Source: Bacteroidia bacterium (GTDB lineage: Bacteria; Bacteroidota; Bacteroidia; Bacteroidales; Marinilabiliaceae). Taken from it: a DNA stretch of 49,735 bases. Numbering within the stretch: the first letter of the stretch is position 1; every line of letters begins with the position of its first letter. The translations under genes and the position numbers were made by a program. Below are positions 16,172 through 49,727 of the stretch, in pieces. The notes under the pieces were generated by a model, which did no database searches, was not told where the DNA came from, and saw only the letters and a list, made by a program, of their open reading frames with translations. The stretch covers positions 1 through 49,735 of the forward strand of contig JAUNDI010000016.1 of NCBI GenBank assembly GCA_030526155.1, written 5' to 3'.

Positions 16172-16215
16172 GGGAGCACTCGGGGAACACTCGGGGAGCA
16201 CCCTAAGAGCACCCT
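16172..16215. repeat. Tandem array of four 11-bp units
   Basis: GGGAGCACTCG, GGGAACACTCG, GGGAGCACCCT and AAGAGCACCCT follow each other with an exact 11-bp period, starting 7 bp after the uvrA stop and running straight into a copy of the dispersed repeat at 16213. Confidence 0.75.
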
Positions 16216-16275
16216 TCTTCATCGTAAAAAAGATATTATGAGGATATAGTATTGTACCTTCTTCATCGTAAAAAA
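16213..16275 (-). repeat. Dispersed repeat family A, paired copies 1 and 2
   Basis: CCTTCTTCATCGTAAAAAA occurs identically at 16213-16231 and 16257-16275, 44 bp apart. On the minus strand this reads TTTTTTACGATGAAGAAGG twice. The bases between them include TATCCTCATAA, also found between the pair at 43754-43825. Confidence 0.85.
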
Positions 16276-16293
16276 CTAAAATGGTAGGGATAT

Positions 16294-16326
16294 AAAAAGA
16301 GCCCGCTGCTGATATGCAACGAGCTC
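16294..16326 (-). terminator. Terminator of the DUF4154 gene
   Basis: On the minus strand GAGCTCGTTGC (16316-16326) pairs over its full length, with two G-U wobbles, with GCAGCGGGCTC (16299-16309), and five T follow. It lies 37 bp past the stop. Confidence 0.75.
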
Positions 16327-16362
16327 CATTGAACGAACTGAATCTGTTATTGTCTTCTGTAA

Positions 16363-16866
16363 TTAGTCTACTTGAACACCAAGAGTAAGAAGTTTCTGAC
16401 CTACTGTGAGACCACGAGACTTGATATTCTTCTCTGATATTTCGTAATTAAGCTTAGAGCCATCGGCGAAGAAAGAGATACCAGCGCCGCTAGCACATTG
16501 TCCCTTCTTACCGCTTACGATAAGTGTTCTATTGCCACTCTGATTTGAAACCAAAGTGCCTATCTGACCACCCTTAGCCTCGCCCAAGCAGATAATATCG
16601 CTCTTTGGCAAAGCATTTACAGTGGCTGCTTCTTTCACCACAACAGTACGGTTACCTACCTTCTTTGTCTTTGCAAGGTTTGAGAGTTCGCCGACTAGGT
16701 CGTTATCACCCACCACAGTAATAACGAGATCACGGTTGTTGTCTTCTGTGGCCCATCCAATGTTCTTTGCGAAGTTGTATACATACAAGGCTTGGAATTT
16801 AGCCATCTGCGCATAGCACATAGTGCCTAAAACGATTAGTAGTATTGATAAAATTGCTCTTTTCAT
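16363..16866 (-). CDS. YfiR-like (DUF4154) exported protein
   Basis: 167 residues from the ATG at 16866, chosen because MKRAILSILLIVLGTMCYAQ is a clean signal peptide; an ATG four codons earlier is also possible, and the frame runs much further up without looking like protein. The mature part starts KFQALYVYNFAKNIGW, the hallmark of DUF4154/YfiR, followed by ITVVGDNDLVGEL and a Gly-rich C-terminal half. In Pseudomonas YfiR is a periplasmic repressor of the diguanylate cyclase YfiN. No such cyclase is nearby, so only the fold, not the pathway, can be claimed. Confidence 0.8.
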   Translation of the reverse strand: MKRAILSILLIVLGTMCYAQMAKFQALYVYNFAKNIGWATEDNNRDLVITVVGDNDLVGELSNLAKTKKVGNRTVVVKEAATVNALPKSDIICLGEAKGGQIGTLVSNQSGNRTLIVSGKKGQCASGAGISFFADGSKLNYEISEKNIKSRGLTVGQKLLTLGVQVD

Positions 16867-17125
16867 AACTCTGTTCATTTGCTTATCTATACATATAATC
16901 AATTCATTATGTTTCACCAGAATGCTCTTTTTTGTGTTTTTTAATACAAAAAAGGTCGTCAATGCTTGTTTTTCCATTGTATTAGATGCTTTATAAGTCA
17001 CTATTTTCCATACATCAAATACCATGCCAAAAAAAATATTCAAAATAATACACCAACGAATACTCTGATATTGAGGGTTATGTAAGATTATACACTTTTT
17101 AGCCTACAACTTTATTCTATTAACA

Positions 17126-17157
17126 TTTGTTAGTAATAAAAACAATTGCTACATTTG
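17126..17157 (+). promoter_or_regulatory. Consensus promoter of the candidate small RNA
   Basis: TTTG (17126-17129), a 20-bp gap and TACATTTG (17150-17157): an exact match to the Bacteroides consensus in both boxes and in spacing. Transcription should start near 17161. Confidence 0.75.
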
Positions 17158-17160
17158 CAA

Positions 17161-17297
17161 TATGAAAAATGAACGGGAGATGAGATAGTTACTCCTCCCC
17201 GATAAGATATTCCCGTTGTGAAACGCGGTAATTTTTTCATCTGTTGTTGTCTATTGTTGATTAAAGGCTTTCTTTACGAAAGCCTTTAATTTTTTTG
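17161..17297 (+). ncRNA. Candidate structured small RNA, about 135 nt
   Basis: A consensus promoter ends at 17157 and a strong terminator ends near 17297, with no credible reading frame between them. The interval can fold into nested helices: an outer helix ATGAAAAAT (17162-17170) with ATTTTTTCAT (17231-17240, one bulged T) and an inner 7-bp helix AACGGGA (17172-17178) with TCCCGTT (17211-17217). A T-rich linker then leads to the terminator hairpin. It does not show the SRP RNA loop, tmRNA features or an obvious 6S core. It could instead be an attenuated leader of recF, but recF has its own -7 box after the terminator. I cannot assign it to a named family. Confidence 0.6.
17260..17297 (+). 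terminator. Strong Rho-independent terminator before recF
   Basis: ATTAAAGGCTTTC (17260-17272) and GAAAGCCTTTAAT (17278-17290) form a perfect 13-bp stem with a 5-base loop, followed by a run of T to 17296. Confidence 0.85.
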
Positions 17298-17305
17298 TAC
17301 CTTTG
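17298..17305 (+). promoter_or_regulatory. Candidate -7 element of recF
   Basis: TACCTTTG, an exact TAnnTTTG match directly behind the terminator T-run and 20 bp before the recF ATG. The -33 position falls inside the terminator stem and is weak. Confidence 0.5.
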
Positions 17306-17325
17306 CATAGAAATCGACCTTTACC

Positions 17326-47690: not shown

Positions 47691-47701
47691 CACTCGGTTT
47701 T

Positions 47702-47774
47702 GCCAATATGGCTCAGTTGGTAGAGCAACGCATTCGTAATGCGTGGGTCGCCGGTTCGAGTCCGGCTATTGGCT
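47702..47774 (+). tRNA. tRNA-Thr, anticodon CGT
   Basis: 73 bases that fold as a full cloverleaf: acceptor GCCAATA with TATTGGC, D arm GCTCAGTTGGTAGAGC, anticodon stem CGCA/TGCG enclosing TTCGTAA-type loop with anticodon CGT, and T arm GCCGG-TTCGAGT-CCGGC. The CCA end is not encoded. It reads ACG threonine codons. Confidence 0.95.
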
Positions 47775-47788
47775 CAAAAGTAAAATAT

Positions 47789-47826
47789 AGCCTATAGGGT
47801 ACAATACCTTATAGGCTTTCTTTTTG
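47789..47826 (+). terminator. Terminator of the tRNA-Thr transcript
   Basis: AGCCTATAGG (47789-47798) pairs with CCTTATAGGCT (47807-47817) with one bulged T, followed by a T-rich run (TTCTTTTTG). Confidence 0.8.
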
Positions 47827-47877
47827 TCTTTTCAACTCAAAGATATTATATTCGCACACATATTATTGTACATATAC

Positions 47878-48666
47878 ATGAATCGAACACCCCTCATATA
47901 CATCGTCTCTATCTTGCTGATGACGATATGCAACTACTCTTTCGGGCAGATTCCTACCATGAACGACGTAGCGCCTATAGGTATGTCTGACCGTAATAAT
48001 GCTCAACTCTATGGCGAAGTCATCAAAATAGAGGAGTCTATATATAAGGTCGATTTTAGTAGAAGAGTTATCGATAAGGGCGAATTTATCAATAGACATA
48101 TCGTAACGTACAACTCAATTGGTAACGAGTTATCTGACGTCAAACTCGATACAGATGGTACAGAAGCAGGAAAAACAATTACCCAATACAATACAGATGG
48201 CTTCAAAAGGGTAACAACAGAATATAACGAGGTGGGCGAACGTATAATGCAAACTCTCTACCTCTTTACCGCTGATGGATTATGCGCTAATATGCGCCTC
48301 ACCGATGCCATGGCTATCACAATGGCTACTTCCGAAGTTAGCCACGGCAATAACTGGGCTAGCATCTCCACTACCTACGTGGGGGCATTCGGTAATGATA
48401 ACGCCGAAAGCAAATTCGAATACAACGAAAATGGTAGAATCATTAAGGCTACTATCACATCTTCTGATAATACTACCGTTAAGTTGGCAAAACTCGACTC
48501 GCTAGGTCACCCTAAATCAATACAAACTATCGTTAATGGTAAAACAGAGTCAAAAAAGACATACAAATACGTACTTGACGAGTATAATAACTGGACAGAA
48601 CGTGTCGAATATATCGACAATAAGCCTGTCGAAATAAGATATCGATCTATAGAATATAGCGAATAA
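47878..48666 (+). CDS. Exported hypothetical protein with YD-like strands
   Basis: 262 residues from the ATG at 47878, chosen because MNRTPLIYIVSILLMTICNY followed by SFGQ is a signal peptide; the longer frame overlaps the tRNA terminator. The mature part has repeated beta hairpins of the kind QYNTDGFKRVTTEYNEVGER and FEYNENGRIIKAT, which resemble single YD/RHS-type strands, but no toxin domain or RHS core is present. I do not recognise a family. It lies 3 bp before the C_GCAxxG_C_C gene, so the three last genes look like one operon. Confidence 0.65.
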   Translation: MNRTPLIYIVSILLMTICNYSFGQIPTMNDVAPIGMSDRNNAQLYGEVIKIEESIYKVDFSRRVIDKGEFINRHIVTYNSIGNELSDVKLDTDGTEAGKTITQYNTDGFKRVTTEYNEVGERIMQTLYLFTADGLCANMRLTDAMAITMATSEVSHGNNWASISTTYVGAFGNDNAESKFEYNENGRIIKATITSSDNTTVKLAKLDSLGHPKSIQTIVNGKTESKKTYKYVLDEYNNWTERVEYIDNKPVEIRYRSIEYSE

Positions 48667-48669
48667 TAG

Positions 48670-49158
48670 ATGGACAAGATTTCTGAAGAGAGAATAGATT
48701 TAGCAGTAAAGAATTTCTACCAAGGGTACAACTGCGCTCAAGCAATATGTACAGCATGGGCTGATGCTTATGGCTTTACCGAGGAACAAATGGCTAAAAT
48801 GTCTTCGTGCTTCGGCGGTGGTATAGGTAGAATGCGAAAAACGTGTGGCGCCGCATGTGGTATGTTTATCCTTCTCGGCCTCGAAGAGGGTAATGCAGTT
48901 GCCGAGGATAAGGATGGCAAGGCGGCTAACTATAAAACAACTCAAGAGCTGGCTAAGCGTTTCGCAGATAGAAACGGCGGTAGCATAGAGTGCGCAGAGT
49001 TGCTCAAAATGGGAAATATCCAAACCTCTACAAATTACCAACCTGACGCTCGTACAGCTCAATATTTCGAAAAAAGACCTTGCCCTAAAATCGTCGAAGA
49101 GACAGCAAGAATTTGGAACGAATACCTACAGGAAAAAGTAAACAATAGAAATAACTAG
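48670..49158 (+). CDS. C_GCAxxG_C_C family protein
   Basis: 162 residues. Cysteines C22, C27, C47, C59, C63 and C138 with the core [19 protein letters not shown] define the C_GCAxxG_C_C family, thought to be redox or metal-related with some members next to redox enzymes; the function is unproven. It has no signal peptide and is probably cytoplasmic. It starts 3 bp after the previous gene and ends 2 bp before kdsC. Confidence 0.85.
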
Positions 49159-49160
49159 AT

Positions 49161-49679
49161 ATGAAACGTAACTTCAAAGAAGAGTTATCTGATATAAAGG
49201 CTTTCGCTTTCGATGTGGATGGCGTACTTAGCCAAACTCAAGTGCCTATGTTCCCAAATGGCGAGCCTATGCGTACCGCTAATATTAAGGATGGTTATGC
49301 TATCCAACTAGCAGTGAAGCTAGGCTACCAAATAGCTATCATCACCGGGGGCAATACCGAGGCTATCCGAGTTAGATACACCAACCTAGGCGTCCAGGAT
49401 GTCTTCATGGGGCAGTCTAATAAGGTAGCTGCATACGAAAACTGGAAAAAGAAGTACAACCTATCCGATAGCCAAATCCTTTACATGGGCGACGATATGC
49501 CTGATCTCCCTCTCCTTAAACGAGCAGGTGTGCCTACATGCCCAGCAGATGCCGTTCGTGATGTCCAAGAGGTATGCCACTATATATCTCCTTATAACGG
49601 AGGCCAATGTTGCGCCCGTGACGTAATAGAACAGGTAATACGCGTTAATGGACAATGGGGTCAAGACCTCGACTGGTAG
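49161..49679 (+). CDS. kdsC: 3-deoxy-D-manno-octulosonate 8-phosphate phosphatase
   Basis: 172 residues, HAD superfamily type C0 without cap. Nucleophile D18 and D20 in [19 protein letters not shown] (61-69), the conserved Lys in QSNKVAAY and [10 protein letters not shown] (110-119) are all seen; the C-terminal segment [14 protein letters not shown] is KdsC-like. It dephosphorylates KDO 8-phosphate for the lipid A inner core. In many relatives maf follows; here the window ends 56 bp later. Confidence 0.92.
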
Positions 49680-49706
49680 CCTATCTGTACTCGTCGCTAA
49701 TTCCAC

Positions 49707-49727
49707 TTTTTACGAGCAACAAGTACC
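49707..49727 (+). repeat. Dispersed repeat family A, partial copy 8 at the window edge
   Basis: TTTTTACGAGCAACAAG, the same variant as the copy at 41435. It lies in the spacer after kdsC; any 44-bp partner to the right would be outside the window. Confidence 0.6.

Follow-up and report, generated by a model that had tools for sequence, protein, structure and literature searches.

The DNA analysed here is a 49,735 bp stretch, the window, which is contig C50 of the genome G000 (2.6 Mb, 85 contigs) of a Bacteroidia bacterium of the family Marinilabiliaceae. Its spacers carry a repeat with the core TTTTTTACGATGAAGAAGG, and this core is the head, or left start, of a dispersed array with an 11 bp unit. 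The 44 bp between paired cores is four such units, and 11 bp is about one turn of the double helix. The arrays are copied within the genome and phased at 11 bp, and among the species searched they are restricted to four sister species. The best reading is that of a copied, modular, clade-restricted interspersed repeat that serves as a bending or wrapping site whatever its orientation. The balance of probability for this reading is about even; its binding partner and function are inferred.

Core, head and 11 bp register

With up to three mismatches, the core has six matches in the window, at 16213 and 16257 on the minus strand and at 25324, 41391, 41435 and 43800 on the plus strand. This number was reached in 0 of 100 shuffles of the window. 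An earlier, sequence-only reading had listed eight copies of the core or a close variant, all of them intergenic, in both orientations and with two copies exactly 44 bp apart in three spacers. All eight copies are present, matches are found on either strand, and all eight lie within spacers of the gene calls made here. One coordinate was 2 bp off: the weak copy placed at 43754 starts at 43756, since the T run there has 8 T, and the spacing of its pair is thereby exactly 44 bp. The pairs are 16213/16257, 41391/41435 and 43756/43800, and the agreement proposed for the bases between the cores of two of them is seen in TATCCTCATAA, which is common to the 16 kb and 43 kb pairs. A search of the whole G000 genome gave 68 matches to the core (up to three mismatches) against 0 for the reversed pattern, and the 44 bp spacing recurs well beyond the window, in 36 of the 72 pairs of heads that lie on the same strand and at most 300 bp apart in the fetched G000 loci. 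Chance and AT-richness are ruled out by the window shuffles together with the reversed-pattern controls, which gave 0 to 1 match per genome in the whole-genome pattern searches. The corresponding control for the loose head pattern in the long stretches described below gave 1 match against 64 heads in the sister species G013 and 4 against 66 in G000.

The idea of a fixed unit of 65–75 bp, or of 44 bp as the basic spacing, has to be replaced. The unit is 11 bp, array length is variable and the arrays fade out on the right within about 70 bp; 44 bp is one multiple of 11 among several, with 22, 55, 66, 77, 88, 99, 110 and 132 also seen. Written in 11 bp blocks from the head, the arrays align as TTTTTTACGAT GAACAAGGGTG CTCCCCGAGTG CTCCTTTATAT TTTTTTACGAT and so on. 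Distances between neighbouring heads were taken with a loose head pattern, up to 300 bp, in the fetched loci of the four species G000, G008, G013 and G010. On the same strand they are multiples of 11 bp in 102 of 114 pairs (67/72, 5/8, 23/26 and 7/8 by species in that order). Sequence past the first unit matches itself at lag 11 with z-scores, against mononucleotide shuffles, of 12.4 (142 segments), 13.8 (13), 26.4 (74) and 4.7 (17) in the four species. A lag-9 signal is equally strong in G000 (z 14.4) and is attributed to CTAG-rich tails; it is not the main signal in the other three species. Apart from this, lag 11 dominates, and a 7 bp period was not found (lag-7 z from -2.0 to 3.1). The tails themselves are C-rich, with CTAG each 9 bp (CTAGAACAA), and stand behind many G000 heads, at 43840–43887 in the window and in L014, L017, L019, L030 and other loci.

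The head has an A-rich leader, AAATAAA, followed by an A-tract of the form AnTm and then by RCGA and SAANAAGG. Rightward of it lies the body, a variable number of degenerate 11 bp units of the form Y-W-S-N8. First heads were aligned for three of the four species (83 from G000, 55 from G013 and 13 from G010, with G008 left out). The left edge is sharp, identity staying at a baseline of about 0.21–0.33 up to position -8 and rising at -7 with AAATAAA, and identity over the first 19 bp is partly due to the selection of loci by their head. On the right, identity drops unit by unit and reaches the baseline about 70 bp downstream of the head, with no conserved right end, tail or end module in these alignments. 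The A-tract before RCGA is AnTm in 185 of 187 heads, the other two containing G. The step TpA occurs in the A-tract of none of the 187 heads and in one head among a later G008 listing; most loci were found with patterns requiring W (A or T) at the A-tract, so W itself is selected there and the absence of TpA is not. Heads starting with TTTT make up 33 of 100 of those listed for G000, 3 of 65 for G013, 2 of 15 for G010 and 1 of 7 for G008.

Neighbouring heads are nearly always in tandem: among 116 pairs in the four species, 114 are tandem, 2 are facing and 0 are back-to-back. This bears on the possibility that the arrays are miniature inverted-repeat transposable elements, non-autonomous transposons that have inverted ends and depend on a transposase acting in trans. 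Such elements would share with the arrays a short, dispersed and mostly intergenic occurrence, an AT-rich left end and copies at unrelated loci. They should have terminal inverted repeats, and the head-pair counts are not those of inverted ends; there is no conserved right end, and the five window strands folded as DNA gave z-scores against shuffles of 0.04, -0.42, -1.45, -2.48 and 0.49. The transposon reading is very improbable, and was rejected on the head-pair orientation and the missing right end.

The general head WWWWTTRCGAKSAANAAGG, with up to one mismatch, is found 174 times in G000, 230 in G013, 77 in G008 and 39 in G010, against 0–4 in the other 11 genomes of the same genus (reversed controls 0–1). 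Exact heads in 71 genomes of the family number 163 in G013, 99 in G000, 27 in G008 and 20 in G010. The other 67 genomes have 0–3, which rules out a spread of the repeat through the whole taxonomic family. A body-only pattern, GTGCTCCCCGAGTGCTC with up to two mismatches, gave 43 matches in G000, 30 in G008 and 0–1 in the other 13 genomes. The identity of YidC to that of G000 is 88, 85 and 79% in the three sister species and 61% in the next closest. The core pattern was also run over a collection of genome contigs, from which G000 was possibly excluded, and matched 53 stretches once each; two of the 13 inspected are in G013, and the rest resembled ordinary coding sequence by eye.

Base-class constraint and position in the chromosome

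Within the body the words differ and the classes of base are kept. In units 3 and 4, positions 1 to 3 read Y-W-S in 229 of 330 units in G000, 42 of 50 in G008, 153 of 166 in G013 and 42 of 44 in G010. A or T stands at position 2 in 98, 96, 99 and 100% of these units respectively, T accounting for 58, 76, 52 and 50%. For position 3 the share of G or C is 94% in G008, 96% in G013 and 95% in G010. Departures from the consensus at position 2 comprise 169 exchanges of A and T, 9 transitions and 2 others. In G000, positions 2 and 3 can also be AT, AC, AA or AG.

The same position was followed in long stretches totalling 842 kb, made up of the window and six contigs of G000 and G013 chosen because they are long or have many heads listed. 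Some of the loci in them had been used before, but the head pattern is blind to position 2 of the later units. W occupies position 2 in 270 of 275 spacer units (136/140 and 134/135), in 38 of 42 sense units within coding sequences (CDSs) and in 40 of 60 antisense units within CDSs. Antisense matches in CDSs behave as chance matches. By phase, the W fraction peaks at position 2 at 0.88–0.99 in the four species; in spacers of these genomes that have no head, the best phase averages 0.69–0.73. This class bias suggests a helix-phased constraint on the DNA. Free exchange of A and T, but not of G and C, is the pattern expected from a minor-groove or shape constraint.

The main rival explanation is a selfish or neutral interspersed minisatellite without function, its head copied into spacers, its units multiplied by slippage and its sites found wherever they are tolerated. 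This is possible, if on the doubtful side. An A/T-interchangeable position once per turn is not predicted by plain descent, and the register is held in 102 of 114 head distances despite strong divergence of the units. The position of the arrays relative to genes is on the side of the minisatellite. Gene calls made here, mostly on 3 kb loci, place 136 of 181 array loci in spacers, 23 in CDSs and 22 at edges. In the long stretches, head density is 10.8–11.8 per 10 kb of spacer against 0.4–0.5 per 10 kb of CDS. In spacers between tandem genes, 41 arrays run with and 37 against transcription, so there is no preferred direction, and arrays are closer to gene ends (median 79–119 bp) than to gene starts (163–170 bp). 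The other spacer loci are 43 in divergent and 15 in convergent spacers. Copying and location are well explained by the minisatellite, the strict register and the class constraint less well.

The same counts bear on two further possibilities. Multi-site operators, bound once per turn by a gene regulator near promoters, would account for a position-specific constraint and for those arrays that precede conserved genes in two or more species. This is quite unlikely, as 15 of 136 spacer loci are convergent, some arrays stand behind terminator-like hairpins, others lie inside genes, and no preferred distance or direction to gene starts was seen. An RNA element, be it a terminator, a leader or a small RNA, would fit the arrays behind terminator-like hairpins (judged by eye) and the T-run of some heads, which resembles a terminator tail. 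This has hardly any probability: orientation to the flanking genes is unbiased in tandem spacers, the most constrained position takes A and T interchangeably, and in five sources there was no Rfam match at the arrays, the sole match being a tRNA at 47702–47774 of the window. It was rejected on the lack of orientation bias and of Rfam matches at arrays.

Arrays lie on the C-rich strand, as judged from the CDSs of the 3 kb loci and with spacer and in-CDS arrays counted together, in 66 of 85 cases in G000, 29 of 51 in G013, 14 of 14 in G010 and 3 of 9 in G008. For spacer loci in the long stretches the figures are 23 of 31 in G000 and 19 of 33 in G013. The local GC skew is pronounced, reaching -0.28 in the window (1–49735), and its sign flips every few tens of kb there and in L368–L407; array orientation tends to track this skew in G000. 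Because of these flips, any link between orientation and skew is not a simple replichore effect. Regularity of spacing along the chromosome was assessed in two ways. For exact heads among the matches listed, the fraction of simulations at least as regular was 0.0002 in G013 and 0.45 in G000, and for the long-stretch set it was 0.09 in G013 and 0.007 in G000. As the two tests disagree by species, no claim is made on chromosomal spacing.

Copies, orthologous sites and the arrays of the window

Direct copying can be seen between loci. A stretch of 64 bp, beginning at the A-tract, is 98% identical between two G013 spacers, with unrelated sequence to its left, and another pair of different loci have 110 bp in common with a single 11 bp block as the sole difference. 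Length thus changes by a whole unit, as in the head distances. These recent copies are in keeping with the minisatellite. The sequence-only reading had the family as mobilised or selected, and there is evidence both for copying and for constraint.

At least 10 of the 99 exact heads of G000, in a list compiled by eye, are no more than 200 bp from a contig end, where 1.3 would be expected; examples are C53:22, C64:38335, C75:41 and 49706 in the window. The arrays therefore probably break the assembly, as near-identical copies would, and the true copy number may be higher.

Other repeats occur beside the arrays. A second dispersed spacer repeat of about 110 bp, partly palindromic and with the ends AGAGTAATTGAG and CTCAATTACTCT, adjoins arrays in L309 and L310 of G013, and fragments of it are found in L258, L303 and L304. 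A terminator-like hairpin, GAGGCTGTGTCAAATTACTGACACAGCCTC, is duplicated along with the array head in L249, L256 and L316, also of G013. L130 (1231–1322) and L215 (1592–1683) of G008 have in common a run of 11 bp repeats, CATACGCACGT, without the usual head. Near body-only arrays of G000 there are near-identical open reading frames (ORFs; MK..TIQRYINPMTDFGFKKIFGEKD), at 2027–2926 of L129 and 2–259 of L131, which are presumably Rpn-type recombination-promoting nucleases.

Orthologous sites carry arrays in several species. The spacer upstream of yidC has arrays with differing words in G000, G008 and G013, and in G010 there is a head 232 bp upstream of the yidC match. Two more spacers have arrays in both G000 and G008; the downstream genes are taken to be TIGR04076-like in one case and bifunctional-nuclease-like in the other. 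Words thus change between species while arrays persist at the same orthologous sites, in up to four species. The change of words at the same site would fit the minisatellite, and the persistence at orthologous sites speaks against it.

Some arrays lie inside genes. DapF has a 13-residue insert in all four species of the clade and in none of five aligned outgroup species (G009, G004, G006, G011 and G014); the other six genomes were left out of the alignment, five matching in pieces and one being without a match. The DNA of the insert can be read by eye in 11 bp units, the words differing from species to species. In-frame heads are also present in the linker of a response regulator, in a TonB-plug outer membrane protein of G000 and G013, in a GH2 protein and behind ketoacyl-synthase domains. 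The ketoacyl-synthase ORF in L274 of G000 (221–2113) has, downstream of its catalytic domains, the repeated peptides KNCDQ, KNCDQ and KNYDEQG, which derive from the head and look as though a low-complexity linker had been built by arrays. The sense direction is used in 20 of the 23 in-CDS loci, some of which, such as the gene common to L021 and L064, resemble chance coding matches.

Five arrays are found in the window, and Tandem Repeats Finder reports periods of 11 bp at 16172–16201 and 9 bp at 43856–43885. Array 1 (16166–16275, minus strand) has ten 11 bp units in register, with heads at 16257–16275 and 16213–16231, 44 bp apart, and then four body units; it starts directly after the stop codon of a UvrA-like ORF (13307–16165, plus strand) in a convergent spacer. 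Array 2 (25324–25378, plus strand) consists of one diverged head at 25324–25342 and three body units; it follows a terminator-like hairpin in a spacer between convergent genes. Array 3 (41391–41478, plus strand) has heads at 41391–41409 and 41435–41453, again 44 bp apart, plus body units; its spacer is divergent and precedes a GH43/CBM6 ORF. The same head distance is found in array 4 (43756–43887, plus strand), between the weak head at 43756–43774 and that at 43800–43818, followed by a C-rich body and a CTAG tail of 9 bp period. Array 5 (49706–49735, plus strand) is a head, CTTTTTACGAGCAACAAGT, truncated by the contig end. According to Pfam, the products flanking these arrays are UvrA-like, YfiR/HmsC-like (DUF4154) and VanZ-like proteins, an MFS_2 transporter, a transglycosylase/SBP protein, TPR, GH43/CBM6 and PD40 proteins and a HAD hydrolase.

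Known repeats, DNA wrapping and significance

Among the open-licence PMC titles and starts of abstracts listed for such repeats, none describes an 11 bp Bacteroidales repeat with a head. In anatomy the arrays are closest to BOX and BrickBuilt, and in their unit-step behaviour to heptamer arrays. BrickBuilt of Porphyromonas gingivalis, as outlined in excerpts of PMC4596501, is likewise a Bacteroidales repeat of tandem short units with a leader, a variable unit number and many dispersed, mostly intergenic copies. It has a 23 nt unit in 19 copies, a leader and a tail with small inverted ends, and is given there as always intergenic; the arrays have an 11 bp unit and 39–230 heads per genome, a leader without a conserved tail, no inverted ends that could be found, and some in-frame occurrences inside genes (the DapF insert and the sense in-CDS units). 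BOX elements of Streptococcus pneumoniae, which their authors view as parasitic, are also dispersed, with a head module and variable tandem middle modules. In the same partial account (PMC3049150), they are boxA-boxB(n)-boxC with a predicted stem-loop RNA and proposed terminal inverted repeats, whereas the arrays lack both a fixed end module and a clear fold. Heptamer arrays (TAACTGA, PMC4679880, and the cyanobacterial short tandemly repeated repetitive sequences, to judge from excerpts) share short direct spacer repeats, length change in unit steps (7 nt) and contig ends at repeats. They have a fixed 7 bp word and no head, unlike the degenerate 11 bp unit, head and class-level constraint seen here. 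As tested defining features of each of the three fail, the arrays are placed within none of them.

For the mechanism, DNA wrapping is the best precedent found, by analogy. The Escherichia coli gyrase motif, in the portion of PMC6379681 used here, has arms of about 47 bp in which GC% varies with a period of 10.75 bp, interpreted as AT turned towards the protein and GC away from it, and gyrase sites are over-represented in the dispersed intergenic BIME-2 (bacterial interspersed mosaic element) repeats. Alternation of AT and GC at the helical period over 35–50 bp, a feature of gyrase wrapping sites, is present in the arrays, and four to seven units equal the length of a gyrase arm; the likeness is an analogy drawn from sequence. 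BIME-2 are made of palindromes (PMC6379681), and the arrays are not palindromic.

In the bending or wrapping reading, arrays would be copied into spacers and rarely into permissive protein loops, and would gain and lose whole units. They would be kept since they form a helically phased bend or wrap, with protein contact once per turn. The likeliest candidate partner may be a DNA-wrapping protein such as the gyrase C-terminal domain or a nucleoid protein. Independence of orientation, the phase and the exchangeable A and T point to double-stranded DNA as the active form.

Several observations weigh against this. Twelve of the 114 tandem head distances are not multiples of 11, and position 3 is S in just 73% of G000 units. 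In G013, most copies of unit 3 read YTC and most of unit 4 YAG, so that two ancestral unit types account for part of the mixing of A and T in G013 and G010. Convergent spacers, where gyrase sites could be anticipated, show no excess of arrays (15 of 136), and the gyrase motif is symmetric about the cleavage site and covers about 130 bp in the sections drawn on (PMC6379681), where the arrays are one-sided. No support was found for the idea that each species recasts its orthologous arrays in a word set of its own, the own species being best in 4 of 13 cases with 3.25 expected. In BirA, aligned for 8 of 15 genomes, a head-like stretch lies in frame in three of the four clade species with no change in length; the case is therefore not evidence for insertion, and the stretch may have its origin in a pre-existing KNYD-like one.

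A bolder form of the idea, tentative and rather unlikely, would have the arrays as polar helix-phased wrapping sites that mark the chromosome about every 12–14 kb. Their spread may have gone through single-stranded copies at the replication fork, a suggestion based on the sharp left end, the ragged right end and the preference for the C-rich strand in G000 and G010. One mobile DNA-shape motif would then have rebuilt the supercoiling landscape of one clade and a loop of an essential enzyme.

The bacterial interspersed repeats described so far are mostly palindromes or relics of transposons, recognised through their sequence. Here the conserved property appears to be a class of base pair once per helical turn, kept across four species while the words change, even in genes. 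DapF also illustrates how residues can be added to an enzyme by a non-coding repeat. If the reading is true, these genomes hold a natural library of hundreds of phased DNA sites in which DNA shape in supercoiling and nucleoid organisation could be studied.

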